DNA of 64,000 nt, from positions 186,001-250,000 of the forward strand of contig JAPKZQ010000015.1 in NCBI GenBank assembly GCA_026393675.1. The letters run 5' to 3'. The position numbers and the translations under genes were made by a program. Shown here piece after piece: positions 43,860-60,784 of this stretch. Numbering within the stretch: the first letter of the stretch is position 1; each line of letters opens with the position of its first letter. This DNA is from Acidobacteriota bacterium (GTDB lineage Bacteria; Acidobacteriota; Vicinamibacteria; Vicinamibacterales; JAKQTR01). The notes beneath the pieces were generated by a model. That model was given only the letters and a program-made list of their open reading frames with translations. It was not told the origin of the DNA and ran no database searches.

Positions 43860-44456
43860 ATGGCTGAGAAACGGGACACCGAGATTCGCCGCGAGCAAAT
43901 CGCCCAGGCCGCCCTGTCGGTGGTCGCCGGCAAGGGCGTGCGGGGGTTGAGCATCGCGGCCGTCGCGCGCGTCGTCGGCCTCGTCCCGTCGGCCCTGTAC
44001 CGACACTTCGCGGGCAAGGATGCCATCCTCGATGCCGTCCTCGACCTCATCAGCGAACGGCTGACCGACCACGTCACCGCCGTCACGCTGGCGCATCCCG
44101 ACGCGCTCTCGCGCCTGCGCGACCTGCACGGCAGGCACATGGAGCTGATTCGCAGCAGCCATGCGATTCCCCGCATCGTGTTTTCGGAGGAAGCCTACAA
44201 CGGCAATCGCCGCCACCGGGCCAAGGTGGTCTCGTTGGTCACGCGCTACCTGGCGCGCGTCGCCGAGATCATCCGGCACGGCCAATTGCAGGGAGAGATT
44301 CGGCCGGATCTCGACCCAGAGGCGGTGGCCACCTTGTTTCTCGGCCTGGTTCAGCCGCCCGCCTTGCTGTGGCAGGTGAGCGGGGGGACGCTGGATCTGA
44401 CGAAGCACAGCGACCAGACGTGGATGCTGTTCAGCGAAGCGATTCGGCAGCGCTGA
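43860..44456 (+). CDS. TetR/AcrR-family regulator of the efflux operon
   Basis: 198 residues. Helix-turn-helix at the N-terminus: EQIAQAALSVVAGKGVRGLS followed by VARVVGLVPSALYRHFAGKD. The remainder is an all-helical ligand-binding domain. It lies directly ahead of a TolC/adaptor/RND operon, and a second dyad with the same TGAAT-N4-ATTCA core lies before that operon (44482-44495). Repression of the pump until a toxic substrate binds is the likely mode. Confidence 0.93.
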   Translation: MAEKRDTEIRREQIAQAALSVVAGKGVRGLSIAAVARVVGLVPSALYRHFAGKDAILDAVLDLISERLTDHVTAVTLAHPDALSRLRDLHGRHMELIRSSHAIPRIVFSEEAYNGNRRHRAKVVSLVTRYLARVAEIIRHGQLQGEIRPDLDPEAVATLFLGLVQPPALLWQVSGGTLDLTKHSDQTWMLFSEAIRQR

Positions 44457-44469
44457 GGAGCTCCTTTTT

Positions 44470-44501
44470 TTGCCAGCGTAGTGAATGACGATTCATATAA
44501 T
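44470..44501 (+). promoter_or_regulatory. efflux operon promoter with TetR operator
   Basis: TATAAT at 44496-44501 is a perfect -10; TTGCCA at 44470-44475 is a possible -35, although the spacer of 20 bases is long. Between them, TGAAT-N4-ATTCA (44482-44495) repeats the core of the tetR operator at 43815-43836, so the same protein should bind here. Confidence 0.65.
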
Positions 44502-44591
44502 AGGGCCGCGCACCTGAGAGCAGCGGCCGGGTAGGGAAGACGGAGGCACGAAGATGTTTAAGCAGGCAAGCGGCCGCCGGGAGGAGAAGAC

Positions 44592-45944
44592 ATGAAACTC
44601 GTCGTAGCGCTCCTGTGTGGGATCACCGCCGCGTTGCTGTCGCCGAGCCCGGCATCGGCCTGCCAGGACGTGCCTGCGTCTCGGCCCGCTGCATCGGTGC
44701 ACCTGCGACTGGATGAGGCCGTGGGCGCGGCCCTGACGAACGCGCCCGCCCTCGCGGCAGCCGACGCCCAGCAACGGGCGGCCCGGTGGAAGGAGCGGGC
44801 GATCGCCCGCAGCCGCTGGGGCCAGGTGGACGCCGTCGCGCTTTACTCGCGCTACCAGGACGACCAACTCCTCCGCCCGATGGCCATCCAGCTGTTCGGG
44901 CCTGGGGGCTTTGCCGCGCTACCCTGGGACCGTGATCAGTTTCACTATGGTCTGACCTTCCAAGTCCCGCTCTATCTTGGGGGACGGCTCTCGGCCACCG
45001 TGGACGTCGCCCGGCTCCAAGCCGATCAGGCGGCGCTGCTTCTCGAAGGTTCCCGGTGGGAGGTGCGGGCGAACGTCACGTCTCTCTACACGGCCGCTCA
45101 GGCCCTCGAGGTCGTTATCCGAGCGCTCGACCAGAACCTCGCTGCGCTCGACGCCACCAGGCTCAAGGTGGTCCTGATGGTCGACCAGGGCCGGCGTCCG
45201 GGTCTCGACCTGCTGAAGCTCGATGAGGAGATGGCAGACGCGCAAGCCCGCAGGGCGGGCCTCGTCGCTGACAACACCCGGGTGCGCAGCCTCGTGCTCG
45301 CTCTGGCCGGTCGTGACCCGTGGCTTACGCTCGAGGTCGATCCCCTGCCGCCCGGCGAGCCACAGCTCACCCACGGCGGCTCCGAACTGGAGGCCCTGGT
45401 GCGGGACAGCTCACCGATCCGCCGCGGGGAATTGGCCACCGCACAGGCCGAAGCCGGCGTCAGGGTGGCGCGCGCGGCGATGCGTCCGACGGTAAGTGCC
45501 CGCGCCAACCTCATGCAGAACTACGGTGTGTCTATGGGTGACCAGCTCGGGACATGGGATGTCTCGGTCGCGCTCTCCGTGCCGCTCTTCAACGGAGGCG
45601 CCCGATCCGCGGAACTCGCCAGCGCTCGAGAGACCGAGCGCGCGGCCCGCCAGGCGGCATTGAAGGTTCGTCTCGACCGCGAGGCGCAGGTGGTCGATGC
45701 CCTGGCGCGCTTCGAGGCGAGCCGCCAGGCCGTCGTGGCCGCTCGCGCCCGGATCGCGTCGGCCGCCGAGGCGGCGCGCATCGAACAGATCAGGTACGAC
45801 ACCGGCGCGGGTACTGTCGACGACCTGCTCCGGGCACGTGCCCACGAACTGGCGGCGGCAAGCGCTCTCGCCCAGGCGCGGGGCGACCAGTTCGCCACCG
45901 CCGCCCGGATCAACGCGATTGTGGAAAAGGAGGTGGTGCAATGA
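44592..45944 (+). CDS. TolC-family outer-membrane efflux protein
   Basis: 450 residues with a signal peptide (ITAALLSPSPASA). Two long coiled-coil halves with the TolC repeat pattern; VALSVPLFNGGARSAELASA is the usual C-terminal strand and helix start. GGGAGGAGA precedes the start. It forms the outer-membrane channel of a three-part pump. Its stop overlaps the adaptor start (ATGA). Confidence 0.92.
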   Translation: MKLVVALLCGITAALLSPSPASACQDVPASRPAASVHLRLDEAVGAALTNAPALAAADAQQRAARWKERAIARSRWGQVDAVALYSRYQDDQLLRPMAIQLFGPGGFAALPWDRDQFHYGLTFQVPLYLGGRLSATVDVARLQADQAALLLEGSRWEVRANVTSLYTAAQALEVVIRALDQNLAALDATRLKVVLMVDQGRRPGLDLLKLDEEMADAQARRAGLVADNTRVRSLVLALAGRDPWLTLEVDPLPPGEPQLTHGGSELEALVRDSSPIRRGELATAQAEAGVRVARAAMRPTVSARANLMQNYGVSMGDQLGTWDVSVALSVPLFNGGARSAELASARETERAARQAALKVRLDREAQVVDALARFEASRQAVVAARARIASAAEAARIEQIRYDTGAGTVDDLLRARAHELAAASALAQARGDQFATAARINAIVEKEVVQ

Positions 45945-47068
45945 AGGCGACGCGCATCGGTGGAGCGGTCTTGGCCGTGCTGCTCATCACGGGTCTTGTC
46001 GCGGTGCGTGTGCAGCGGGTGCGCGAGAAGGAGCACGCGCCTACGCTGGCACCCGCGCCCGTGGTTGTGGCCGTCGCCCGTGTGCGGGCCGGCCAGATGC
46101 AGGACGCGCGTCGTTTCCTGGGCGAGGTCGCCGCCCTCGAAGAGGCGCCACTCGCCGCGCGAATCGTGTCCCAGGTCGTACGCGTCACCGTGCGGGAAGG
46201 TGACCCGGTCCGTCGGGGCCAGACGTTGGTCGAGCTGGACCCCCGTGAGCTGGAAGACGCGGTCGCCGCTGCGGAAGGGACGGTTACCGCGGCGAGCGAA
46301 GGCGTCGCCGCTGCCGAGCAGGGATACGCGGCCGAGCGAGACGCGACGGCCCGCGATCAGGTGCTCGTGAACGCCCGTGCGATCGCGCGTGAGCAGTGGG
46401 ACCGGTCCCAGGCCAGCCTGGCCGCGTCCCGAGCTCGGTTGGAGTCGGCCCGAGCGCAGCTCACCACGGCGCGCCGGACCCTCGACTCGGCGCGGACGCG
46501 ACGCGGCTATGCCGTCATCCAGGCGCCATTTGATGGCGTGGTGTCGGCCCGGCATGTCAGCCCGGGTGATCTCGCTGCGCCCGGCAAGCCGCTCGTCACG
46601 GTGGTCAGCACGGCCAGGCTCAGCGTGCGCGTGAAGGTCCCGGCCGAAAGCGCCGAGTCGATCGCGGTCGGAGCGACGATCCGCGTCGAGACGGCCGGCA
46701 CGTGGCAGCCGGTCCACGTGTCGCGCGTCTTTCCGGCGATGGACGCGTCGCGCCTGGCGACGTTCGAAGCCGATCTGCCCGGGTCGAACCTGCTTCCGGG
46801 ATCGACGGTGTCAGTCGAGGTGCCACTGCCCGCGGTTTCCGGCCTCCTTCTTCCGGCCGACGCGGTCCTCGAGAGCGAGAGAGCGCACATCGTCTTTGTG
46901 GTCGCTGGAGGGAAGATCCGCATGGTGTCGGTTCGCCTGGTGGCCCACGACGCGGCCGGTGGCACGGTCGTGACGGGTGCGTTGCGCGAGGGCGACATGG
47001 TGGTGGTCGGCCGCCCTTCGCGGCTCATGATGCTGACCGACGGAGCGGCGGTGCGCATAGGGGAATAG
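45941..47068 (+). CDS. RND-type periplasmic adaptor (membrane fusion protein)
   Basis: 375 residues. N-terminal membrane helix (IGGAVLAVLLITGLVAV), a lipoyl half-motif (VSQVVRVTVREGDPVRRGQT), a helical hairpin rich in Ala/Arg (about residues 100-185), the second lipoyl half (VIQAPFDGVVSARHVSPGDL) and beta-barrel domains. It joins TolC to the inner-membrane pump. Start overlaps tolC-like stop, so translation is coupled. Confidence 0.93.
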   Translation: MKATRIGGAVLAVLLITGLVAVRVQRVREKEHAPTLAPAPVVVAVARVRAGQMQDARRFLGEVAALEEAPLAARIVSQVVRVTVREGDPVRRGQTLVELDPRELEDAVAAAEGTVTAASEGVAAAEQGYAAERDATARDQVLVNARAIAREQWDRSQASLAASRARLESARAQLTTARRTLDSARTRRGYAVIQAPFDGVVSARHVSPGDLAAPGKPLVTVVSTARLSVRVKVPAESAESIAVGATIRVETAGTWQPVHVSRVFPAMDASRLATFEADLPGSNLLPGSTVSVEVPLPAVSGLLLPADAVLESERAHIVFVVAGGKIRMVSVRLVAHDAAGGTVVTGALREGDMVVVGRPSRLMMLTDGAAVRIGE

Positions 47069-47103
47069 GCCCCGATGGCTGATTCGAATCCGAGAGGCTT
47101 TCC

Positions 47104-50100
47104 ATGTCATTGGTTGCCCGCTACATCAATCGTCCGCACCTGCTGACGTCCCTCGTCCTCCTGGCCGCCGTCGTCGGGTTGGTCGGCTATCGGCAGATGC
47201 CGGTCAATCTGTTTCCCGACTCCGAGCGGCCACAGATCGCCGTTGTCACCGTCGTGCCTGGGGCGTCGGCCGAGGATGTGGAAGCCGAGGTCAGCCGGCT
47301 CATCGAGAAGGAGTTGTCCACGATCGAGCAGGTTCGGCGCGTCACGTCGGTGAGCAAGGACGAAGCCTCGACCGTCACGGCCGAATTCGAATATGCCAAG
47401 GGACTCGACTCGGCCGCCACCGACGTCGGCAATGCGCTGCAGAAGGTCAAGGCGGCGTTGCCCGAGACGGCGCGCTCACCGGTGCTCTTCAAGCTTTCGT
47501 CGGCCACACCGGCCGTCGTCACGCTGGCGCTGCGCCCGAAAGCGGGTTCGCCCCTCGACCTGGCGACGGTGCGGGAACTCGCCGACAACGCGATCAAGGA
47601 GCGACTGTTGCAGCTGCCGGAGGTGGCAAACGCGGAGGTCTTCGGTGCCCACAACCCGATCATCCGGGTATCGCTTGACCGCGACCGACTCGAACGCTAC
47701 CGATTGACCCCGCTGGACGTGCGCCAGGCGCTGGTGGCCTTCAACGCCAACCAGCCGCTCGGCCTCCTCACGGCCTCCGACAGCCAGTTCCTGCTCAAAC
47801 GCACCGGCCAACTCCGGAGCGCGCGGGAGGTCGGGCTGATTCCGATCGGCCAGCGGCCGGGCGGGACGGTCCATCTGGGCGACATCGCGGACATCCGACT
47901 CGGCACTCAGGAAGCGCAGAGCGCCTATCATGCCAACGGCCAGCCGGCGATCGCGATCAACTTGCAGCGCAGTCCTGCGGGAAACGCCTTGCGCACGATC
48001 GCGGACGTGGCCGGCCTGCTGCCTGAGCTCGAGCGGTCGTATCCCGGCATCGAGTTTTCGATCCCGGACAGCCAAAGCGAGCTCATCCAGCGGGCGGTCG
48101 GCAACATGCTCGACGCGCTGAGGGACGCCGTCATCATGACGGTGCTTGTGATCTTCCTGTTTCTGGCGGACTGGCGGGGTATGACGCTGGCGGCCGTCTC
48201 GATCCCGTTCACCTACCTCCTCACGTTCGCGGGCATGTGGCTCGGTGGCTACGAGTTCAACATGGTCACGCTCACCGCCATCATCGTGGCCGTCGGCATG
48301 CTCCTGGACGATGCCATCGTCGTGCTCGAGAACATCGAGCGGCACTACCATGAGGCCGGGCGTGACGCGAAGGACGCCGTCGTGGGCGGGACCGAAGAGG
48401 TGATGGTCGCGATCTTCTCGGGAACGTACGCCACCGTCATGGTGCTTCTCCCCATCATTTTCATCGGCGGCTACGTGCAAACGGTCATGCGGCCGCTGGC
48501 AGTCACGCTCTCGATCGCGCTTGTGGCGTCCTACGTCGTCTCGGTGACCGTGATTCCACTGCTCGCGCCGGTCCTGCTGCGGCGGCGCGCCGGTGCCGCG
48601 CGGAATCGGTTCGAGCGGGTGGTAGCGCTCTTCGACGAGCGCGTCATCAGTCCGATCCGCGACTTCTATGTTCGCCTCACTGCCCTTGCGCTTCGTCACC
48701 GTGGACTGGTGATTATCGCCGGCCTCGTCCTGTTCGCCGTCTCCGTGCGCCAGATGCCCCTCATCGGCCGCGATCTGATGCCACCGATGGATTCGGGGAT
48801 CATCAAGGTCGTCTTCGAGGTCGACTCGAACAGCTCGCTCGCCGGGGCAGAACGGACGCTGTCACGTCTCGAACAGGTCATTCGAGGGCGATCCGAGGTC
48901 ACCTCGGTATCCTCGGTGATTGGCTCGGAGCCGGCGGTCATCTCGTTCGGCGGCGGCCGGCTTCCACAGCAAGGAGTGGTCACCGTACATCTGGTGGACC
49001 GCTTCAACCGCAAGGCGTCGATCTGGGACGTCGAAGACGATCTGCGCGCGAAGATGCAAGGGATCCCGGGCCTCAAGGCGGTGGACGTCTACGATTTCGG
49101 TGCCACGCCGCTCTCGACGATTCGCGCTCCCGTCGATGTGATGATCTCCGGGCCGGACATGGCGACGCTCGACCGCCTCGGGGCCGACGTGGAGCGCCGT
49201 TTGCGCACCCGCGTCCGGGGACTCACCTCGGTCAGCCGCTCGTGGCGTCTTGACAGCTATGAAACGCGGTTCTCGGCCGATCCCGAGAAGTTGGCACTCT
49301 ACGGGCTCTCGCCCGCCGTGCTGAGCGCGCAATTGCAGGGCGCGGTTCGCGGCGTTCCGGCCTCGATCTATCGCATCGCGAGCGAAGACGGACTTCCCAT
49401 CTGGGTGCAGATGGCGCCGACCGACCGCCAGGGTTCGGAACAGCTGGAGAGCTACCCCGTGAGCACGCCACGCGGGACGATTCCGCTGGGCGCGCTGGGT
49501 GTGTTTGCGCGCCAGCCGGCAGCGGCCCTGATCACCCGTCAGGGCCTCGAGCGAACCATTGACGTCCAGGCGTACCGCGGCCGACGTCCCATCTCGCACC
49601 TGCAGGAAGATGTCGAGGCGGCACTGGACGGCCTCGTGCTTCCCCCCGGCTATCGCATCGACCACGAAGGGGAGATCAAGCAGATGGACGAGTCCTTCAA
49701 GCGCCTGGCGATGGCCCTCGCGCTGGGGCTCGTGCTGCTCTACTTCTCACTGGTGCCCGCGTTCAAGTCGTGGCTGCACCCGCTCACGATCATGTCGGCG
49801 ATCCCGCTGGCGCTCATCGGGGCGGCGTGGAGCATGCTCGCGGCCGGGAAGCACAGCTGCATGCCGGCCTTCATGGGCCTCATCCTGCTGGCGGGGATCG
49901 TCGTCAAGAACTCGATCCTGCTCATCGACTTTATCGCCGTTGCCCGTGAGCAGGGTGACTCCACCATCGACGCCCTCGTCGGCGCGGTGCGCGTTCGCAC
50001 GCGGCCGATCCTGATGACGGCCGTCGGCACGTCGGTCGGCATGATCCCGATCGCCGCCGAGTGGGCCATCGGGCTCGAACGACTCTCCCCACTCGCGATC

Positions 50101-50241
50101 ATCGCCATCGGCGGGCTGATGGTCTCGACGTTCCTGACCATGGTCTACGTGCCCGTGGTGTACTCGCTCTTCGAGGACGCAGAGACAGCGGTGCGCCGGC
50201 TGCGCGAGCCCAAGACCGCAGGGGCAGACGAGCGGGTGTGA
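47104..50241 (+). CDS. RND-family efflux permease (HAE1-like)
   Basis: 1045 residues, normal for AcrB-type pumps. Twelve membrane helices in the 1+5+1+5 layout. The proton-relay region in helix 4 reads VAVGMLLDDAIVVLENIERH, with the paired Asp residues. Two large periplasmic loops with pseudo-repeats (VVPGASAEDVEAEVSRLIEK). The helix 4 motif fits hydrophobe/amphiphile exporters better than metal exporters. The gene lies 35 bases after the adaptor and ends the operon. Confidence 0.95.
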   Translation: MSLVARYINRPHLLTSLVLLAAVVGLVGYRQMPVNLFPDSERPQIAVVTVVPGASAEDVEAEVSRLIEKELSTIEQVRRVTSVSKDEASTVTAEFEYAKGLDSAATDVGNALQKVKAALPETARSPVLFKLSSATPAVVTLALRPKAGSPLDLATVRELADNAIKERLLQLPEVANAEVFGAHNPIIRVSLDRDRLERYRLTPLDVRQALVAFNANQPLGLLTASDSQFLLKRTGQLRSAREVGLIPIGQRPGGTVHLGDIADIRLGTQEAQSAYHANGQPAIAINLQRSPAGNALRTIADVAGLLPELERSYPGIEFSIPDSQSELIQRAVGNMLDALRDAVIMTVLVIFLFLADWRGMTLAAVSIPFTYLLTFAGMWLGGYEFNMVTLTAIIVAVGMLLDDAIVVLENIERHYHEAGRDAKDAVVGGTEEVMVAIFSGTYATVMVLLPIIFIGGYVQTVMRPLAVTLSIALVASYVVSVTVIPLLAPVLLRRRAGAARNRFERVVALFDERVISPIRDFYVRLTALALRHRGLVIIAGLVLFAVSVRQMPLIGRDLMPPMDSGIIKVVFEVDSNSSLAGAERTLSRLEQVIRGRSEVTSVSSVIGSEPAVISFGGGRLPQQGVVTVHLVDRFNRKASIWDVEDDLRAKMQGIPGLKAVDVYDFGATPLSTIRAPVDVMISGPDMATLDRLGADVERRLRTRVRGLTSVSRSWRLDSYETRFSADPEKLALYGLSPAVLSAQLQGAVRGVPASIYRIASEDGLPIWVQMAPTDRQGSEQLESYPVSTPRGTIPLGALGVFARQPAAALITRQGLERTIDVQAYRGRRPISHLQEDVEAALDGLVLPPGYRIDHEGEIKQMDESFKRLAMALALGLVLLYFSLVPAFKSWLHPLTIMSAIPLALIGAAWSMLAAGKHSCMPAFMGLILLAGIVVKNSILLIDFIAVAREQGDSTIDALVGAVRVRTRPILMTAVGTSVGMIPIAAEWAIGLERLSPLAIIAIGGLMVSTFLTMVYVPVVYSLFEDAETAVRRLREPKTAGADERV

Positions 50242-50334
50242 CCGATCGGGATCCGCCGGCTCGCCGGCGCCGCGAATCGTCTGGTTCCCCACGCGGCATT
50301 GCCGGACCCGCGCCGGAATGAAACCGGTTTCGTC

Positions 50335-51981
50335 TTAGTTGGCCGGCACGGGCTCCTTGGTGTCGAGCTTCGATGGCGTGAATATCTCGAGGATGCCCTT
50401 CAGCCCGAGGCTCATCACGATGTTGTAGAAGAACGCCAGGAACGCGAACAGCAGCAGTGAGCCGGAGAGCGCCGCGAGGATCATGTAGACATTGAACTCC
50501 CCGTTCACGTACAACGAACGCCGCAGCATGCCCTGCAACCCCGCCATGCCCATGAACGCGCCCATGCCGATGCCGCCGAGCAGGTGCGCCCAGAAATGGA
50601 AGACCGCGAGTTTCTCGCTGTAGAGCTTCGCCCCGTTGGTCACGATCGGGAAGAGCAGGTAGATCACCGAATAGAGGGTCATTGTCAGTCCGACCAGCAC
50701 GGCGACGTGTACGTGCGGGCCGACGATCCACTGCGTATTGTGGAGGATCCTGTTCAACCCCAGGTCCGCCTGCATGATGCCCGCGGGAACGGCCAGCGCG
50801 AAACCGAGCAGGCCGCCGAGCAGGAACTTGAGCGGGTGCGTCATCTTCAACGGCCTGGCGCTCCACAACGTGGCGAGCGTGATGAAGAAGGCGAGCCCTT
50901 GCGTGATCAACTCGAACGCGGTGACCATCTCTCCGGACACCGTCTTGAGTATTGCTGGCTGTGCCTGGTCGGACATCAGGTGATGGGACCACACGGTCCA
51001 CGACACCACCAGTTCCACAAACAGTGCGGCACGGGCGATGTTCTCCATGTAGAGCTTCTTCCCCGTGATGAGCGTGGCGAGGAGGTACCACGTGCCTGCC
51101 ACGAAGATCAGCACCAGGCCGTCTGCGATAAGGTCCAGTCCCCACCAGAACCAGTTCTTGTAGAGCAGTGCGTCCACCGCGCTGTGTTTCAGGTCGTGCC
51201 CGAGTAACGCGGCAACCATGTACACCAGGATGAGTACCCCGGTGAACAGGATGACCCCCGCGTTAAACGCGGTGTCCACCGTGCCGAGTGCGATCGCCGC
51301 GATGGGCAGGGAAACCAGGTGCTCCTTCTTCTTCCTGGAGAAGAACGCCTGCAAGCCGCTCAGGCCCAAAGCCGAGCCGAGCAGCGCGCCCACGGGCTGC
51401 TTGTCCCATCCCTTGGGCGTATACGAAATCGTCTTGAAGATATTGAGGACAAAGCACACCGTCCCGACCATGACGATGGCGATGCCGACGATGAAGAAGA
51501 TCCCACCCCAGAGGCTGAACTGCGTGAAGTCTGCCGGAAGGGGCCAGTACAGCGTGTAGAGGGGGGCGTATTCAGAGAGAAAACCAGCGAACCAGAAGGT
51601 GAACGTGCCGACGGCCAGAAGCCCGCAGGTCCAGTTCGCGAGCGGGATGCTCCACAACGGCTTCTTCATCAAGAAGGGCACGAGGAAGAGGAATGCGCCG
51701 AAGACGATCGAGTAGCTTGACCCGAAGATCCCGACCAGGGGATGGGCCGTCATAATGGCGAAGAACTGCTGCGTCGACACCGTTGGGATCGGCGTGACCT
51801 CGTACAGCCGCATGATCATGCCTTCGATGACCGCGAAGCCGTAGTAGACGAGCCCGACGACAACGAAGCGGAGGATCATCTTCTGCATCGGCGTGAGCGT
51901 GGCCGGCTTGAACGACTCCTGCTCGCCGTGAACGAGGGTATGGATGAAGTTCATGGTGTAGCTCGCTGGAATGATGAACAT
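50335..51981 (-). CDS. noncanonical haem-copper oxidase/NO-reductase subunit I
   Basis: 548 residues, about 14 membrane helices. Haem ligands: H80 (MTAHPLVG) and H423/H425 (GPHVHVAVLVG). Two active-site metal ligands are the HH pair H333-H334 (TVWSHHLMSDQ). The third, normally His in helix VI, is D283 in NWFWWGLDLIADG, and D287 replaces the nearby Glu of NO reductases. There is no Tyr-His crosslink region of oxygen reductases. From memory, such sets occur in the unusual NOR groups (for example gNOR). Subunit II is encoded just upstream. Product: probably NO reduction in the membrane, but untested. Confidence 0.85.
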   Translation of the reverse strand: MFIIPASYTMNFIHTLVHGEQESFKPATLTPMQKMILRFVVVGLVYYGFAVIEGMIMRLYEVTPIPTVSTQQFFAIMTAHPLVGIFGSSYSIVFGAFLFLVPFLMKKPLWSIPLANWTCGLLAVGTFTFWFAGFLSEYAPLYTLYWPLPADFTQFSLWGGIFFIVGIAIVMVGTVCFVLNIFKTISYTPKGWDKQPVGALLGSALGLSGLQAFFSRKKKEHLVSLPIAAIALGTVDTAFNAGVILFTGVLILVYMVAALLGHDLKHSAVDALLYKNWFWWGLDLIADGLVLIFVAGTWYLLATLITGKKLYMENIARAALFVELVVSWTVWSHHLMSDQAQPAILKTVSGEMVTAFELITQGLAFFITLATLWSARPLKMTHPLKFLLGGLLGFALAVPAGIMQADLGLNRILHNTQWIVGPHVHVAVLVGLTMTLYSVIYLLFPIVTNGAKLYSEKLAVFHFWAHLLGGIGMGAFMGMAGLQGMLRRSLYVNGEFNVYMILAALSGSLLLFAFLAFFYNIVMSLGLKGILEIFTPSKLDTKEPVPAN

Positions 51982-51985
51982 CGGG

Positions 51986-52552
51986 TCAGTTGGTGCTGCT
52001 CTTCTCGCACGACACGACGACGACGTCCTTCAGGGTCATGTCGACCCCTGCGGGACCCGAGTACTCTGTGGAACGGATGGTGTAGACACCGGGCGTGTGG
52101 AACTGCCATAGGATGTCGTTCTTGTGTCCGGGCACCACCTGCATCTGGAAGAGCATCGAGTGGTCGTTCCGAAACAGGCCGAATCCGTACGTCAAATCGT
52201 TCGACGTCACATTGAAGAGCACCTTCTCGTTGCAGGCGATGAGAAGCTTCTCCGATGGCAGCTGAAACGTGTGCGAGGCCACACCGATGTTGAACACCTT
52301 GTCCGGCGTGATGGTTGCCCGGTGCATATCCATCGGCTTCCAGGGAATGGTGTAGTAGGTGATGACATGGAGTGAGAAGCCAAGCACGACGAGGAAGGTG
52401 ACGAACGAATAGAAGAGCGCAGGCTTCACGCTGCTGCTCTTCCCTTCCTGCGTCACGCGCCTCGCGAACCAGCCCATCACCAGCATCATGGCGAGGACAT
52501 AGAACGTGTAGGCCAGCGTCTGCCCCCACAGGACGGTCGTCGAATCAACCAT
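51986..52552 (-). CDS. CuA-less cytochrome oxidase subunit II-like protein
   Basis: 188 residues; ATG at 52552 with GAGGGAGAG upstream. One or two N-terminal helices, then a cupredoxin fold. The CuA ligands are lost: the His of SNDVTHGF is Tyr (SNDLTYGFGLF), both Cys are Ser and the last His is missing (STEYSGPAGVDM); only the Met remains. So the subunit cannot bind CuA and electrons must enter the catalytic subunit in another way. It is followed four bases later by subunit I. Confidence 0.85.
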   Translation of the reverse strand: MVDSTTVLWGQTLAYTFYVLAMMLVMGWFARRVTQEGKSSSVKPALFYSFVTFLVVLGFSLHVITYYTIPWKPMDMHRATITPDKVFNIGVASHTFQLPSEKLLIACNEKVLFNVTSNDLTYGFGLFRNDHSMLFQMQVVPGHKNDILWQFHTPGVYTIRSTEYSGPAGVDMTLKDVVVVSCEKSSTN

Positions 52553-52769
52553 GTCGATCTCTCCCTCAGCTGGCGGGGGCACGCATATCATAACTCCAGA
52601 CGTGACCGAGCTGGCGTCCAGTTCGCGGAACTGCTATTCCTCCTCCGGCGGCACCATCCGTTCCTCGGCTGTGGGCCAGAACCGACTCAATGCTGAGGGC
52701 CGGGTGGTAGCAGAAGAAGGGGATCTCAATTGAAAGCTGAGAGAATGTGTCGATGCAGAAACCTCAGCG

Positions 52770-52792
52770 ATACACGGAGGATCTCGGTGTAT
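52770..52792. promoter_or_regulatory. inverted repeat in the divergent region between oxidase and ABM gene
   Basis: ATACAC-N11-GTGTAT at 52770-52792 is a perfect 6-base dyad. The 297-base divergent region 52553-52849 must hold promoters for both the oxidase genes and the ABM gene. No known NO-sensor box (for example FNR-type) was found by eye. Confidence 0.3.
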
Positions 52793-52849
52793 AACTAACG
52801 CATCCCGGATGGCCAAAATGGAAATGTCGGATAAAAGGAGGCAAGAGTC

Positions 52850-53140
52850 ATGTTTGTCGTTATCATCAATTTCCCACCGATTAAGACAGGAAAGGATGCT
52901 GAGTTTCGTGAGTGGTTTGTCCAGGCAAACAAGGAGTTTGCAAACTACAAGGGATTTGTCAGCCAACGACTCCTGAAACCCATCAAGGGTGGCAACTATG
53001 CTGCCATCGTGGAACATGAGAGCCATGAAACCTTCACGGCCATGCATAATAGCCCCGCTCACGCTGAGGCCAGCAAGCGTGTCGAAGCCATGCTTGACGG
53101 CAGCCGATCTCCTCAGTTTTACGAGGTGATTGTGGGTTGA
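52850..53140 (+). CDS. ABM-domain (antibiotic biosynthesis monooxygenase/haem-oxygenase-like) protein
   Basis: 96 residues. AAAGGAGG precedes the ATG. The fold pattern (FVVIINFPPIKTGKDAEFRE, EHESHETFTAMHNSPAHAEA) is typical of the dimeric ferredoxin-like ABM superfamily, which includes IsdG-like haem-degrading enzymes and quinone-modifying proteins. Base composition is clearly richer in A/T than the neighbours, suggesting recent transfer. Divergent from the unusual oxidase pair, which suggests a linked response. Exact activity unknown. Confidence 0.82.
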   Translation: MFVVIINFPPIKTGKDAEFREWFVQANKEFANYKGFVSQRLLKPIKGGNYAAIVEHESHETFTAMHNSPAHAEASKRVEAMLDGSRSPQFYEVIVG

Positions 53141-53199
53141 TAGTAAGTTGGCACGAGGTCGGATGGAGCGGACGCGAAGGCCGCAATCATTGAGAACGG

Positions 53200-53343
53200 G
53201 TTGACCTCACAGAAGATCACCCGTCCGCGGCCGTCGTGTACGCGTCGAGGCGCGTGCCAGGTCGAGCGTTGCCATCACGTCCGTGGCCTGCATCGTCGGC
53301 CGCAGCGTCCACGCCAGGATGTAGCGCGAGTAGTCATCGAGCC
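53200..53343 (-). pseudogene. remnant of an IS3-like integrase-type transposase
   Basis: The minus strand reads RLDDYSRYILAWTLRPTMQA followed by TDVMATLDLA, the DDE core middle part of rve-type transposases (LDDFSRYI.AW...). Stop codons and loss of homology follow on both sides. The remnant is one of several pieces in the patchwork 53141-53630. Confidence 0.65.
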
Positions 53344-53483
53344 TCATACGAAAGACCACTGACACCACCCGTCGTCGGCTCAGTCTCAGTGTATGCGCTG
53401 GTTCTGGGCTCCCTCAACGATTCACGCTCAATGCCGTTGGCGAGCGCAGGCTGGAGAACCGTCGTCCCCTTCGCCACAACGAC

Positions 53484-53555
53484 GCGCTCCGCCCGAGCCC
53501 ACGCGGCCTCGGATGCCAGGGCGCGGAGCACGAAAACGACCACGGCGAGCGCCAG
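53484..53555 (-). pseudogene. fragment of a qNOR gene, fused to the cupin copy
   Basis: The minus strand reads ALAVVVFVLRALASEAAWAR, the same as residues of the full qNOR gene (56323-56394) apart from V for G, with about 5 base changes in 68. The fragment ends exactly at AGCGCCAG (53548-53555), an 8-base stretch present at both parent sites (56387-56394 and 43283-43290). Confidence 0.75.
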
Positions 53556-53630
53556 TGAAGATCCGGTCCGGCGCTGAGAAGGCTGTGTGCGAGCCGTTCA
53601 ACGCTCGCCTCGACAAGGAAGGAAGACCCG

Positions 53631-53978
53631 ATGCCCACAACGACCCAGATGATTCCGGCAGCCGAGGCGCTGCTGCTTCAGTCGCTCGTCAGCCCCACCG
53701 AACAGGGAATAGCCAGTCGCGTGCTGGCAAAGACCAGTGGCGGCAACGTCACACTCTTCGCGTTCGACGGGGGGCAGGGACTCACCGAGCACACGTCGCC
53801 GTTTGATGCGCTCGTGATGGTCCTCGAAGGATCTCTCACCCTCACGATCGGCGGCTCGCCAGTTCGCGCGACGCCGGGCACGATCGTGCGCATGCCCGCC
53901 GACGTCCCGCACGCGCTCGATGCGCCTGAGCCGGCTCGAATGCTGCTCATCATGTTGCGAGACCCCAAGGTGGCGTAG
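53631..53978 (+). CDS. cupin-domain protein, copy 2
   Basis: 115 residues, 109 identical to copy 1 at 43366 by eye. The ribosome site GGAAGGAAG and about 75 bases upstream are also shared. Downstream similarity fades near 54010. The whole segment looks like a duplication inserted next to a qNOR fragment. Metal-binding His residues are kept, so the protein is probably active. Confidence 0.9.
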   Translation: MPTTTQMIPAAEALLLQSLVSPTEQGIASRVLAKTSGGNVTLFAFDGGQGLTEHTSPFDALVMVLEGSLTLTIGGSPVRATPGTIVRMPADVPHALDAPEPARMLLIMLRDPKVA

Positions 53979-54060
53979 CTTCCACGGCATCGCGCCCTTT
54001 CGCTCGATGCCGCAGCGGCTCCTGGTCAATGTCTCCCGTCACCAGGATGGGCAATCGACC

Positions 54061-55254
54061 ATGAAGAATCGTGACGCACCCCTGCCGGAGAAGACCGTTC
54101 TAGGCGTGCACCGCGGCATCTTCATGTTGGGACTTGTCAGCTTCCTTACTGACCTCAGCTCGGAGATGATCTTCTCCGTATTCTCTGTATTCCTCATCGC
54201 AATTCTGGGCGCCTCGGCGGCACTTCTTGGGATTATCGAGGGAATAGCGGACTTTGCCGCCTCGTCGCTCGATTACGTGGCCGGCTTTGTCTCCGACCGA
54301 ACCGGCAAGCGGAAGACCCTCACTATCCTGGGCTACGCGTTCTCGACGCTGGCTAAGATGATCATCGCGCTTCAGAGCACGCTGTTCTCGGCCGCCGTGT
54401 TCCGCGTGATCGAGCGCCTCGGGAAGTCCTTCCGCGGCGCTCCGCGTGATGCCTGGATCTCATCGATGGCGGCCCAGAAGAATGCCGGCTTTTCTTTTGG
54501 AGTCCACAAGGCCATGGACAAGTCGGGGGCGATCCTCGGCCCAATTGCCGCCTACTTCATTCTGGACCGTCTGGGCGAGGCCGCCTCGACGTTCAAGATC
54601 CTATTCCTGGTGGCCCTCGTCCCTGCGGCGTTGGCCGTACTGCTCCTCTTCTTCATCAGTGAAAGACCCGTCCCACCCGCCGAGAGAGAGAACGTCTTCA
54701 GGGCGTACAGAACATTCGGCCCCGATTTCAAGCATTACCTGTTCACCGCTGGACTCTTTTCCCTGGCCTATTTCAGCTTCGGTTTCCTGCTGCTCAAGGC
54801 TTACAGCGTCGGCTTCGCCATTCAGAGCGTTACCCTGCTCTACGCGCTGTACAACGTGTCCTTTGTGATCGCCGCGCCGCTGTTGGGAAAGCTGGGTGAC
54901 CACGTAGGTAGGCGCAAGATCATCGCTCTCGAATACGTCCTGTATCTCTTGATGTGTGTGGGCTTTATCTTCGCCTCGGCGAAATGGCAGGTCGTGGCGC
55001 TGTTTCTCGTCTTCGGCGTCTTCTACGCCATCGATGAAAGTCAGAGTAAGGCCTACATCACCGACATGGAAAAGACAAGAAGAGGCACAGCCATCGGCGC
55101 CTATAGCTTCTTCACGGGTCTGGTCTACCTTCCAGCGTCGATCATTGCCGGCGCGCTCTGGAAGATCAACCCGAGCTACGCCTTCGGGTTCGCCGGAATC
55201 ACCTCCGCGGCAGCGTTTGTGTTCTTCGTTTCGCGCAGAGCCAAGAACCGATGA
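54061..55254 (+). CDS. MFS transporter
   Basis: 397 residues from the ATG at 54061; the longer open frame into the cupin gene is ignored. About twelve helices; MFS loop motif GFVSDRTGKRKTLTI. The N-terminal half has FLTDLSSEMIFSVFSVFLIA, a pattern seen in a group of MFS proteins often placed near respiratory or stress genes. Substrate unknown. It is followed by a truncated cytochrome c. Confidence 0.85.
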   Translation: MKNRDAPLPEKTVLGVHRGIFMLGLVSFLTDLSSEMIFSVFSVFLIAILGASAALLGIIEGIADFAASSLDYVAGFVSDRTGKRKTLTILGYAFSTLAKMIIALQSTLFSAAVFRVIERLGKSFRGAPRDAWISSMAAQKNAGFSFGVHKAMDKSGAILGPIAAYFILDRLGEAASTFKILFLVALVPAALAVLLLFFISERPVPPAERENVFRAYRTFGPDFKHYLFTAGLFSLAYFSFGFLLLKAYSVGFAIQSVTLLYALYNVSFVIAAPLLGKLGDHVGRRKIIALEYVLYLLMCVGFIFASAKWQVVALFLVFGVFYAIDESQSKAYITDMEKTRRGTAIGAYSFFTGLVYLPASIIAGALWKINPSYAFGFAGITSAAAFVFFVSRRAKNR

Positions 55255-55318
55255 CCTCACCGCGAGTGATCCTGGCGCACGCGGTGCCGCAGCATACCTG
55301 CGGCTCCGGGTGGTGTGA

Positions 55319-55993
55319 CGGCGGACGTCCACGTCAGGCGACCATCCGCCCGAGCCTCGGCGAATCTTCCAGTCGGAGACTGGCGGAACCGACTTGCGCT
55401 ACAACCAGGACGGGAAGAACACCCCGCTCGTCCTCCCGCCAGCCTATGGTCTGGCGAAAGTCCAGAACGAAACGTACACCGCGGAAGGACCGATCTCCTA
55501 TTGGAATGCCTACGTCGCCGTCACCCAAATGGGCGGGCAAGGCAACTTCTCCGATCCACGGCTCAAGATCGACGTCAAGCACTCGCCGGACATGGTCACG
55601 TCCAAACTCCCGGCGTTGCGCGCGTACCAGCACAGCCTGCCGGTCCCTCCACCTCCGGCCGGAAGCTTCGACGTCGCCAGCGCCAAGCGCGGCCGAGCGG
55701 TGTTCGACCGGACGTGCGCGAGTTGCCACGTCGGCGGGTCCGGCACAGACAATAACAGCGGGAAGATGCATCCGCCGTCGGATACGGGTGTCGACGGGGC
55801 GTACGCCGCACGCACGGCAAGTAAGGCGTACCGCACAACTCCCTTGCGCGCCCTGTGGCAACACGCGCCGTACTTCCACGATGGCAGCGCCGCGACGCTT
55901 GTCGACGTCGTCGCGCACTACAACCAGGTCCGAAAGCTCGGGCTCACGGCGGAGCGACAGCGAGAGCTCGTCGAGTATCTGAAGTCGCTCTGA
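55319..55993 (+). pseudogene. 5'-truncated c-type cytochrome
   Basis: The frame is open from 55319; the first start-like codon is TTG at 55394. One haem site, DRTCASCHVGGSGTDNN, and a C-terminal end typical of di-haem peroxidase-like cytochromes (LRALWQHAPYFHDGSAATL). The N-terminal part, with signal peptide and first haem domain, is missing. It begins next to the MFS gene, so a deletion joined the two. Whether the fragment is translated is unclear; without a signal it could not be matured. Confidence 0.65.
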
Positions 55994-56031
55994 GCGTCAG
56001 GCGAGGGCGGCGTCCACAGGGCGCCGCCTGT

Positions 56032-58335
56032 CTACTTTATTCGTGACCGGTCCTCCGATCGAGAAGTCGCCGGATCGAGTACCACCATCAATGTGGCCGT
56101 GACCAGCGGCACGACACCGGCCACCAGGAACACGCCGTCCCCAACCAGACGAACCCACTCGAGCGTGTGAAACGGCCCACTCATCGTGAATGCCGGCTGC
56201 CGTGCGTGCCAGTATCCGTTTGCGATCGAGTCCCACAACTGGAGCACGCCGGCCGGAAACATGTCCAGCACGATCATCAGGCCGAGCCCGACATTGAGTC
56301 CCCAGAAGCCGAACCTGACGAGGCGTTCCGCCCGAGCCCACGCGGCCTCAGATGCCAGCGCGCGGAGCCCGAAGACGACCACCGCGAGCGCCAGCATGCC
56401 AAAGACGCCGAACAGCGCGGCATGGCCGTGGTTCGGGGTCAACACGGTGCCCACCTCGAAGTACGACACGATGGGGAGATTGATCAGAAATCCGAAGACG
56501 CCTGCCCCGACGAAGTTCCAGACGCCCACGGCCATCAAGAAGTAGATCGTCCAACGGTGGCGGCCCGCCAGGGCCTGCCCACACTCCTCGCACTGGCGCT
56601 GTCTGAGGCGTATGAAATCCCAGGCATCGAGTGTCAGGAGGGTGAGGGGCACGACCTCAAGGGCGGAGAAAGAGGCGGCCACCGCCATGTTCAGCGTGCC
56701 CTGTCCCGTGAAGTACCAATGGTGGCCGGTGCCGAGGATGCCCCCGCCCAGGTAGAGAATCGCGTCGAGATACACGACCCGCGTGGCCGTCTTGACCGTG
56801 ACCAACCCCAGGAGATGGAACATCACCGCGACCAGGACCGTCGCGAAAAGCTCGAAGAAGCCTTCCACCCACAGATGGATGATCCAGAAGCGCCAGTTGT
56901 CGATGACGGCGAAGTTGGTGTGCGGGCCGTAGAACAGGGCCGGCAGGTAGAACACGGGGATCGCCGCGGCAGCGTACAGGAACAGCGCCCCAAGCTCGGA
57001 TCGATTGCCCCGCCGCATCACCGGCCGCAGTGCCCGATACATCAGGACGAGCCAGAAGGCGAGACCGATCGCGAGCAGGATCTGCCAGAACCGACCCAGA
57101 TCCAGGTACTCCGAGCCCTGGTGGCCCAGCCAGAACCAGGCCCGGCCCAGGGCACCGTTGATCCCGAGGTACTCCCCGAACAGGCTGCCGAAGACGACGA
57201 CCGCCAGGGCGGCCAGCAGCACGAGGGCGCCAGCCCGTTGACCACGCGGCTCTGCGCCGCCAACAAGCGGCGCGAGCAGGAGCCCTCCGGCGACCCAGGC
57301 GGTGGCGATCCAGAAAATCGAGAGTTGCAGATGCCACGTGCGGGCCAGGTTGTACGGAAGCACGCGCGACAGGTCGACGCCATAGAACGCGCCGGGTTCA
57401 ACCCGATAATGCGCGAGCACGCCGCCAAGGAGTGTCTGGGCCAGAAAAAGGACCGCGACGACGCCGAGGTACCAGGCCATCGCGCGTTGACTCGGGGTCC
57501 ATCGCCACGTCGCCAGCGCGTTGTCGTGCGAGTGCCCCGGGGTGGCGGCCTGGTGCCATCCGAGGTAGTCAAAACGGCCGACGAGAAAGAGGACCGCACC
57601 GAGGCCACCGAGCAAGGTGATAAGGCTCAACGCACTCCACAGGTACGTCGAACTGCTGGGTGTGTTCCCCGCGGCCGGGTCGTAGGGCCAGTTATTGGTG
57701 TACGAGTAGTCTCTCCCCGGTCGGTTGGCGACTGTCGCCCACGCGGCCCACGTGAAGTACGTGGCCAGGTCGTCGAGTTCGCTCGGCTCGCGGATGTAGT
57801 TCAGCGGTAAACCAGCGGCAGCCGTGGGACCCGAGAAGAAATCGGCCCAGTGGACGCGTGAGGCGGCAAGTGCGGCGACGTCGAGATCGGTGAACCGCAG
57901 TATGCCGGTTCCCGGGTCGTAGCGGTTCTCCTTCAGAGAACGACGCACGGCGTCGGCGATCTCGGCGGCGGCTCCAGTCTCAAGGGCGAGGTAGGGTCGC
58001 CCGAATCGCCCGTGTGCGAGCGTGTCACGCCCAACCTCGACCGCCTCGTGCAAGGTCTCGGCACTGTAGTCCGGACCGAGGTACGCGCCATGGCCCCAGA
58101 GCGTCCCATATTCCATCAGGCCGTACCTCAGGAACACCTCTTGCCCGCGCAGGATGTTGGCCGACGTGAACAGCGTGCGGTCCGAGGCGTCCTCAACACG
58201 GACGGGAATCGGCGGGGCGTCCACGTAGGTCCGGTAGGTGAGGTAGGACAAAACGGCGAATCCCGCGATCATTACGAGAATGACGGTGTGCCGCCACCAG
58301 GGCGACAGGGGCGTGGTTTCTTCAGGCTGATTCAT
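56032..58335 (-). CDS. norZ: quinol-dependent nitric oxide reductase (qNOR)
   Basis: 767 residues; ATG at 58335 with GAGG upstream. The N-terminal extension typical for qNOR has RGQEVFLRYGLMEYGTLWGH. The catalytic part shows the helix VI His/Glu (RFWIIHLWVEGFFEL) and the HH pair (GTGHHWYFTGQG), so metal ligands of the FeB site are complete. It reduces two NO to N2O with quinol electrons in the cytoplasmic membrane. Divergent from fumarase at 58407 with 71 bases between. Confidence 0.95.
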   Translation of the reverse strand: MNQPEETTPLSPWWRHTVILVMIAGFAVLSYLTYRTYVDAPPIPVRVEDASDRTLFTSANILRGQEVFLRYGLMEYGTLWGHGAYLGPDYSAETLHEAVEVGRDTLAHGRFGRPYLALETGAAAEIADAVRRSLKENRYDPGTGILRFTDLDVAALAASRVHWADFFSGPTAAAGLPLNYIREPSELDDLATYFTWAAWATVANRPGRDYSYTNNWPYDPAAGNTPSSSTYLWSALSLITLLGGLGAVLFLVGRFDYLGWHQAATPGHSHDNALATWRWTPSQRAMAWYLGVVAVLFLAQTLLGGVLAHYRVEPGAFYGVDLSRVLPYNLARTWHLQLSIFWIATAWVAGGLLLAPLVGGAEPRGQRAGALVLLAALAVVVFGSLFGEYLGINGALGRAWFWLGHQGSEYLDLGRFWQILLAIGLAFWLVLMYRALRPVMRRGNRSELGALFLYAAAAIPVFYLPALFYGPHTNFAVIDNWRFWIIHLWVEGFFELFATVLVAVMFHLLGLVTVKTATRVVYLDAILYLGGGILGTGHHWYFTGQGTLNMAVAASFSALEVVPLTLLTLDAWDFIRLRQRQCEECGQALAGRHRWTIYFLMAVGVWNFVGAGVFGFLINLPIVSYFEVGTVLTPNHGHAALFGVFGMLALAVVVFGLRALASEAAWARAERLVRFGFWGLNVGLGLMIVLDMFPAGVLQLWDSIANGYWHARQPAFTMSGPFHTLEWVRLVGDGVFLVAGVVPLVTATLMVVLDPATSRSEDRSRIK

Positions 58336-58406
58336 GACATGGACCTCGGGTCGTATGATAGTAAACAACTCCCTGACACGTGAAAGCGGAATGAAGGAAG
58401 AAGAAA

Positions 58407-59831
58407 ATGCCGGAAAGACAATCCGCGACAGCAAGAGACCCCGTGAACACCCGTACCGAAACGGACTCCATGGGAGAAGTCGCCGTTCCCGCCGACAAGT
58501 ACTGGGGCGCGCAGACGCAGCGGTCTTTCGAGAATTTCAAGATCGGGACGGAACGAATGCCGTTGCCTCTCGTCAGGGCTTTGGGCGTGCAGAAAAAGGC
58601 CGCAGCGCTAACAAATATGGAGCTGGGCATTCTCGACATCGCATTGGGGACTGCCATCGCTGACGCCGCGCAGGAAGTCATGGATGGCGCCTTGAACGAC
58701 CACTTTCCGCTCGTCGTCTGGCAGACGGGGTCGGGCACCCAGACCAATATGAATGTCAACGAAGTGATCTCCAACCGCGCGATCGAGATTCTCGGCGGGC
58801 AGATCGGGTCCAAGACGCCTGTTCACCCTAACGACCACGTGAACATGGGGCAATCCTCGAACGACTCCTTTCCGACAGCGATGCATATTTCCGCCGTCGA
58901 GCAGTTGCAGCACGAGCTGATCCCGGCGCTGGAACACCTGCAGAGCGCGCTGCAAAGCAAGGCCGTCGCGTTTAAAGACATCATCAAGACGGGCCGCACC
59001 CATTTGCAGGATGCGACACCCGTGACGCTGGGTCAGGAGTTTTCCGGCTATGCGACCCAGATCAAGTACGGCGTCGTCCGCGTCAAATCCTGCCTGCCGC
59101 GTCTTTCCCAGCTTGCGCAGGGAGGAACCGCCGTCGGCACGGGGCTGAACTGCAAGAGAGGTTTTGCGGAGCTGTTCGCAAGACATGTCTCCCAGATCAC
59201 GAATATTCCCTTCACCACCGCCGAAGACAAGTTTGAGGCCATGGCCGCCCACGACGCCATTGTGGAAACCTCAGGCAACCTGAACACCCTGGCCTGCTCG
59301 CTCATGAAAATCGCGAATGATATGCGATTGCTGGCGTCGGGCCCACGCTGCGCTATCGGCGAAATCCACCTGCCGGAAAACGAGCCCGGCTCCTCAATCA
59401 TGCCGGGCAAAGTCAACCCGACGCAATCCGAGGCCATGACCATGGTCTGCGCGCAGGTGATCGGAAACCATACGACGATCTCAGTCGCCGGCAGCAACGG
59501 TCATCTGGAACTCAACGTCTTTAAACCCGTCATGATTTATAGCCTGCTGCAATCGATCCGCCTGCTGGCCGACGCCTGCCGCAGCTTCACGGACAACTGC
59601 ATTGCGGGCATTGAAGCCAACAAAGAGCGTATCAAAGAGCTGCTGAACGGCAGTTTGATGCTGGTGACGGCGCTCAACCCCGTCATCGGCTACGACAACG
59701 CCGCCAGAATCGCCAAGAAAGCGCATCAGGACGGCAAGACGCTGAAAGAAGTCGCCATCGAGCTGAAACTGCTGACGGCGGAGGAATTCGACAAGGCCGT
59801 TCGCCCTGAAAAGATGATCGGTCCAGGCTAG
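58407..59831 (+). CDS. fumC: fumarase class II
   Basis: 474 residues; AAGGAAG upstream of the ATG. Signature [17 protein letters not shown] near the C-terminus, and [20 protein letters not shown] and [13 protein letters not shown], with active-site His and Ser. It hydrates fumarate to malate in the TCA cycle. Base use is milder in GC than the neighbours, with many AAA/GAA codons, which may point to horizontal origin. An iron-free fumarase next to NO reductase would be sensible in NO stress. Confidence 0.96.
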
Positions 59832-60784
59832 CGCATCCGATAGGTCACAAGCGTGCGGATGTTGAACAGGCCGTCGTTCTGCGCGGGCGCACCGAAGCCG
59901 CGCCTGACCGAGAGCGGCGAGTAGAAGGCGTCCATGCCCAGAACCAACCTGTTCGTCAGATGGTAGCTGACCCCTCCGCTGGCCGAGACCGCCATGCCTT
60001 GAGAGAGATAGTGGGTGTGATCGATCATCCCGAATGTCAGCGCGTTCACCTGGAAGCCCAGGTTCATGTATGCGAGTCCGATCGCCGCATGCGGCGAGAG
60101 TCTGTTCGGGGCGTCCGGCCGATACGCGACACTGACCTCCCCGCCCGCATAACGAAGGGCTGCCGTGTCGGACGACGCGGCCTGGCATCCCTCGGGATTT
60201 CCCGCCGAGCCTGGCTCGAATGCCAGTGTGCTCGCCGGGCACGTGTAGGCCCCCTGCACCGTGCCGATTTGCCCGTACACCCGCAGGCCCACGGCCAACG
60301 CCGGTGTCTCGTAGACTGGTCGCTCAAGGGCGAGCGCGAGGAGTTTCGTCTTGAGCCCGAACATCGGGATCGGAGGCACGACCGCGACGACAAGCGACAG
60401 GCTGGCCGGCAGGCCGATGGTGACACGAGGCCTTGGGAAGAACGGCGTCTTGTTGAGATCTTGCGACTCGGTACCGTTGTACCCAACGAACTGCTGAGCG
60501 TCAGTGAGCGGAGGTAGCCATCCGGCTTCGAGCCCGATCGACACGGACCCCGGTTTCTGTGTGCGCGGCGTCTCAAGGCCGCCGACGAGCGTGACCGAGG
60601 TGAAGTACTTGAGCGCCCATGATTCCGGCCTGTCGAATGACAGGTGGTCGATTGAGTTCATCACCATCTGTGCGGCTGCGGGCGGCGGGACCACGAGCAT
60701 GAGCCCCGCGCAGACGGCCAGGCACGCCACAAGCCGTGAGACCTCTGGCCGACGACCGACCCTACTGAGCGGTTCGAGTTTCAT
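59828..60784 (-). CDS. exported outer-membrane-like protein of unknown function
   Basis: 318 residues with a signal peptide ([22 protein letters not shown]). Beta-barrel-like pattern of Gly and aromatic residues ([19 protein letters not shown]) and a terminal strand [11 protein letters not shown]. Two Cys (TCPAST and EGCQAAS) may form a disulfide. It overlaps the end of yceI-like gene by 23 bases, so both are translated together. No family recognised. Confidence 0.75.

Follow-up and report, generated by a model that had tools for sequence, protein, structure and literature searches.

Two adjacent genes of an acidobacterial genome most likely encode a membrane-bound, quinol-fed NO reductase (NOR) that would serve in NO detoxification. 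The pair is most likely a further member of gNOR, a proposed kind of enzyme that has itself never been assayed. Subunit I has Asp residues, D283 and D287, at the two helix VI positions occupied by a metal-binding His and the active-site Tyr in oxygen reductases, and subunit II has a cupredoxin domain that lacks the CuA ligands. New here are the second helix VI Asp, D287, and a set of about 80 operons with an invariant two-Asp site, carried by bins of Acidobacteriota (Vicinamibacterales), Bacteroidota including Ignavibacteria, Gemmatimonadota and Spirochaetota. In annotation, genes of this type can easily be mistaken for cytochrome c oxidase. The operon set, with NO-related neighbours in many of its members, makes an Asp-ligated, CuA-less enzyme that would convert NO to N2O, a greenhouse gas, directly testable.

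The window, i.e. the whole stretch of 64,000 nucleotides that was analysed, corresponds to positions 186001-250000 of contig C15 in an assembly of 3.25 Mb and 46 contigs. On the minus strand the gene for subunit II comes first and is followed, after a 4-base gap, by that for subunit I (Table 1). A possible alternative start of subunit I is the Met of codon 10 (51954), which is invariant. For subunit II a longer open frame reaches 52591 (201 aa), and the likely start is Met14 (52552), from which the relatives align and which is preceded by GGGAGAG; this is also the start that had been assigned earlier. Pfam COX2 matches subunit II weakly (0.07, below the cut-off). COX1 matches three genes of the source genome, namely subunit I, the qNOR of the window and an A-family oxidase on contig C4. 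The nearest named relatives are from Acidobacteria and Vicinamibacterales bins, with 86-92% identity.

Table 1. Positions in the window of the gene pair, its key residues and two neighbouring genes
Feature	Position	Strand	Basis
Subunit I, haem-copper oxidase superfamily, gNOR-like	50335..51981	(-)	548 aa; Pfam COX1 2e-52
Subunit II, CuA-less cupredoxin domain plus two membrane helices	51986..52552	(-)	
D283 codon, where helix VI of oxygen reductases has a His metal ligand	51133..51135	(-)	alignments; invariant 83/83
D287 codon, where oxygen reductases have the cross-linked Tyr	51121..51123	(-)	alignments; invariant 83/83
H333-H334, helix VII metal ligands	50980..50985	(-)	invariant 83/83
H80 in helix II, ligand of the low-spin haem	51742..51744	(-)	invariant 82/82 (sequences covering H80)
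H423 and H425, helix X haem ligands, motif GPHVH	50707..50715	(-)	conservation and alignments
E357 (VTAFE) of helix VIII, perhaps equivalent to the SALE Glu of NorB/qNOR	50911..50913	(-)	invariant
ABM-domain protein, divergent neighbour	52850..53140	(+)	Pfam ABM 2e-7
Second NO reductase, canonical qNOR	56032..58434	(-)	Pfam NorB cytochrome c-like domain 1e-53, COX1 1e-51

The original prediction was that D283 replaces the His ligand of helix VI. An ungapped phmmer alignment with Thermus ba3 equates D283 with the CuB ligand H233 and D287 with Tyr237 (literature numbering, which is the alignment numbering minus a 7-residue tag offset), and hhalign against A- and B-family oxidases likewise sets D283 opposite the ligand His. 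D283 lies 13 residues past the helix VI Asp, D270, a spacing shared by those A-family, B-family and eNOR-like proteins in which a spacing scan found the motif (in L121, an eNOR-like protein, it was read by eye). Matching of WWGL to eNOR shifts the register by one residue and places Leu284 opposite the His, as does a multi-family MAFFT alignment; the shifted position holds neither a His nor any other ligand residue in these alignments. The alignment check that had been proposed places D283 at the ligand position against the A- and B-families, with a register uncertainty of one residue against eNOR; hhalign with the window qNOR by itself gave no usable alignment. Since the unshifted register preserves the i/i+4 pair (His/Tyr, His/Gln, His/Glu and here Asp/Asp) and a shift would turn it into Leu/Gly, D283 is very probably the residue at the ligand position. 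The predicted replacement holds with this one-residue caveat; however, the residue that matches the gNOR literature is D287, which the prediction did not mention.

The active-site residue table adapted from Hemp and Gennis (2008; PMC8756737, Table A4) lists Y for oxygen reductases, E for cNOR and qNOR, N for sNOR and CuANOR (bNOR), Q for eNOR and D for gNOR. The Asp at +4 points to gNOR, because the Y, E and Q of this table are reproduced at +4 in the sequences compared here (Y in oxidases, E in qNOR and Q in eNOR-like proteins). The cNOR and qNOR pattern is three FeB His with Glu at +4, where the pair has Asp and Asp; D287 also stands where eNOR has Gln and where sNOR and bNOR have Asn. The gNOR second subunit is described as having a cupredoxin fold and not haem c (PMC8756737), which AF2 and Foldseek results for subunit II match, and gNOR is termed ‘quinone-oxidizing non-electrogenic’ (PMC8906906). 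The Asp listing and the quinone-oxidizing label both fit D287 and the CuA loss. gNOR is treated as a proposed, not a characterised, NOR that is related to the B-family (PMC11388526), and papers disagree on proton pumping, one giving 0 channels (PMC8756737) and another predicting translocation (PMC6349771). Proposed gNORs (NorGH) are those of Sulfurimonas, Sulfurovum, Persephonella and Methylomirabilis; compared by description only, they resemble the pair in the Asp at the Tyr position, the two subunits and the cupredoxin-type subunit II, and they are described as quinone-oxidizing. The subunit I/II pair is most likely gNOR by its features, the Asp and the CuA-less subunit II, and not by tree. 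These features, together with the NO-related neighbours, support the early suggestion of an unusual NOR such as gNOR.

In a 30-row tree the A-family, the B-family, eNOR-like proteins and the gNOR-like family each form a supported group of their own. The gNOR-like family has a long branch and no supported joining to any other group, the B-family included, and only group monophyly was used from this tree because one row (L012_Q) is probably in the wrong frame and the window qNOR has a very long branch. One broader reading combines a non-haem metal held by two His and one or two carboxylates, so that a haem-copper fold would carry a 2-His-carboxylate iron site of the type known from non-haem iron enzymes, with a quinol-fed NOR family that is separate from, or undescribed within, gNOR; this combination as a whole appears improbable. 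Somewhat less probable still is an undescribed NOR family strictly apart from gNOR, with the Asp at the Tyr position acquired by convergence and a His-to-Asp ligand swap of its own. The absence of any mention of such a swap in the paper passages covered here would favour this separation, as would the tight clade without intermediates (in Bacteroidota, family matches of at least about 1020 bits versus 57 for the next non-family match) and the deep placement, for which the tree gives no supported joining. The two gNOR features that could be compared, Asp at +4 and a cupredoxin subunit II without CuA, nevertheless both match. For gNOR the ligand change may already have been noted by Murali et al. 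in 2024.

Retention of H333/H334 and of both haem His had also been predicted, and this is confirmed: H333, H334 and H423 are found in 83/83 sequences, H80 in 82/82 and H425 throughout a 34-row alignment. The helix X motif is one residue longer than the GHFH of other families, and H462 of helix XI is a further invariant His. E357 lies 23 residues past the second His of the HH pair, compared with 21 for the SALE Glu of the window qNOR, and its motif and position suggest that it may correspond to the catalytic Glu in helix VIII of NorB. E53, R58 and Q72, at the periplasmic end of helices I and II, are invariant or nearly so; these positions are presumably where bo3 binds quinol. The AF2 model of subunit I has a mean pLDDT of 76, and its matches among solved structures are COX1 chains (best Z 31). 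It falls to a pLDDT of about 50 around residues 331-350 and below 50 at 406-421. The active-site modelling that had been recommended therefore backs the fold and is silent on active-site geometry, because the model is weak exactly at the active-site loops.

Replacement of the CuA residues of subunit II, His to Tyr and two Cys to Ser, is borne out as Y135, S174 and S178 by comparison with ba3. The full set of changes at ba3 CuA positions is H114 to Y135, C149 to S174, Q151 to E176, C153 to S178 and H157 to G182, and nearly all of the resulting Tyr/Ser/Glu/Ser/Gly positions are invariant in 81 subunits II. Y135, T175, E176, Y177, S178, G179 and G182 never vary in this set, R173-G179 forms a conserved stretch, and the CuA ligands expected of a cytochrome c oxidase are missing in all relatives. 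The AF2 model (pLDDT 84.7) shows two helices and a cupredoxin domain, and Foldseek matches it to the ba3 CuA domain and to the quinol oxidase subunit II, CyoA. The electron entry route had been called unknown as a consequence of CuA loss. The loss stands, but the route can be better constrained: with neither CuA nor haem c, electrons most likely come straight from quinol, as in bo3- and SoxB-type oxidases. These quinol oxidases also have a subunit II without CuA, and differ in their oxygen-reducing site of three His and Tyr.

The closest solved relative by sequence is the B-family oxidase Thermus ba3, with which the pair has in common the HH pair, the haem His, the HNT motif and the fold of the CuA domain. 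It differs in the changes of His233 and Tyr237 to Asp, the replaced CuA ligands and the longer helix X motif. eNOR resembles subunit I in the WWGL of helix VI and in an active-site position without Tyr, but it keeps the His ligand, has Gln and not Asp at +4, and forms a separate clade; the eNOR-like subunit I genes (L017 and L121; WWGLGHxSQQ) come from other Acidobacteriota genomes. In cNOR and qNOR a carboxylate is likewise found beside the metal, and a helix VIII Glu follows an [ST]A[LF] motif. However, these enzymes keep three His, have Glu in place of Asp, and carry a haem c subunit or a fused N-terminal domain where the pair has a cupredoxin subunit.

The active-site Tyr of haem-copper oxidases (HCOs) provides the fourth electron for O2 splitting. 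With the Tyr missing this electron would be gone, which suggests a site set for two-electron NO chemistry. A quinol-dependent oxygen reductase with a relaxed active site would be in keeping with the HCO fold, the B-family-like similarity, the oxidases that are the best solved relatives and weak matches to SoxB and SoxA profiles. It is nonetheless very unlikely, as 83/83 sequences have Asp in place of the Tyr on which O2 splitting depends, one of the three His that hold CuB in A- and B-family oxygen reductases is gone (it is Asp at helix VI), and the context in relatives is NO-related.

The steps proposed for a gNOR-type reaction are as follows. Subunit I would catalyse 2 NO + 2 e- + 2 H+ -> N2O + H2O, with NO the presumed substrate. 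H80 and H425 would bind the low-spin haem, and H423 the high-spin haem. Next to the latter, H333, H334 and D283 would hold a non-haem metal that is probably iron. D287 would be either a fourth, carboxylate ligand or a second-sphere acid, and E357 may act as the conserved helix VIII Glu of cNOR and qNOR. The cupredoxin fold of subunit II would be a structural cap without CuA. In many relatives the resulting NO detoxification would be under NO-responsive control.

The changes had been judged consistent and not random decay, and selection data agree. Relative to close relatives, subunit I has a dN/dS ratio of about 0.08-0.09 and subunit II one of 0.15-0.18 (Nei-Gojobori), which indicates strong purifying selection. 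As the replacements are invariant or nearly uniform and dN/dS is low, the residue changes are maintained. Loss of canonical ligands in both subunits might otherwise suggest a gene in decay, or a catalytically dead HCO used to sense gases or redox state; with uniform replacements, the other ligands invariant, low dN/dS and the two genes kept together across phyla, there is very little likelihood of either.

A genome scan found 335 relatives, of which 80 were kept and their loci fetched. The 83 subunit I relatives are from bins of Acidobacteriota, Bacteroidota, Gemmatimonadota and Spirochaetota, and the identity of subunit I to the kept relatives, which span several phyla, is 76-92%. The family is rare: it has about a dozen full-length matches in a Bacteroidota sample of 395 genomes, and samples of Spirochaetota and Gemmatimonadota genomes have it in 1/247 and 2/249, the centre genome counted in these two. 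Identity of 75-92% across phyla, together with patchy presence, suggests horizontal transfer of the pair. No distant intermediates turned up in genomes of the four phyla; the matches belonged to the tight clade or, in searches that listed weaker ones, to far relatives. A plasmid search gave only haloarchaeal oxidases (26-31% identity), and a search of viral contigs gave no matches to the family. In an Ignavibacteria-like locus (L141, contig C67 of genome G246) a truncated extra copy of subunit I is found near an intact pair. It is 260 aa long and 74% identical to residues 9-266; alternatively, it may belong to that same gene, viewed in a different frame of reference.

Of the 80 fetched loci, 42 have a gene for an Rrf2-family regulator immediately upstream and in the same orientation. 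These proteins have three conserved Cys and match the Rrf2 superfamily model, and their match to the NsrR equivalog model is below the cut-off; from their family, that of NsrR, we infer that they sense NO. Other loci have Crp/Fnr, hemerythrin or RIC/YtfE-like, DUF2871/NnrS-like or ABM-domain genes. The NO-related neighbours in relatives lend support to the NOR reading. In the window itself no NO regulator adjoins the pair, and two Rrf2 genes lie elsewhere in the source genome. A search of this genome gave no match to NirK and nothing over the cut-off for NosZ, and NO detoxification therefore fits better than denitrification.

The window qNOR, about 4 kb from the pair and with an uncertain start codon position, has intact HLWVE, HH and SALE motifs, which rule it out as a putative NO dismutase. 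A different handling of NO by the gNOR-like pair, such as dismutation, might be entertained since the active site is unlike that of every assayed NOR. It is the most remote of the alternatives, as the known putative dismutases are of another architecture: they are described as qNOR relatives that lack a quinol site and have Asn in place of His and Gln in place of Glu (PMC3413370).

Between the ABM gene and subunit II there is an inverted repeat at 52770-52792 (ATACACGGAG/CTCGGTGTAT) with 10-base arms and a 3-base gap. As an operator, the palindrome at these positions (ATACAC-N11-GTGTAT) was rejected, as it is missing upstream in six acidobacterial relatives. No sigma-70 promoters were found, with 0.9 expected by chance, and Rfam gave no match in window positions 44000-60000. 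The ABM protein of the window is weakly like the haem-degrading HmuQ, and four related loci have homologues of it upstream of subunit II. At 55394-55993 on the plus strand there is a fragment resembling MauG or a di-haem peroxidase-like cytochrome c, with a TTG start and a possibly truncated N-terminus. A gene for an RND efflux pump is found near the gNOR-like pair in three acidobacterial loci: L023, L081 and the window, where it is at 47104-50241.
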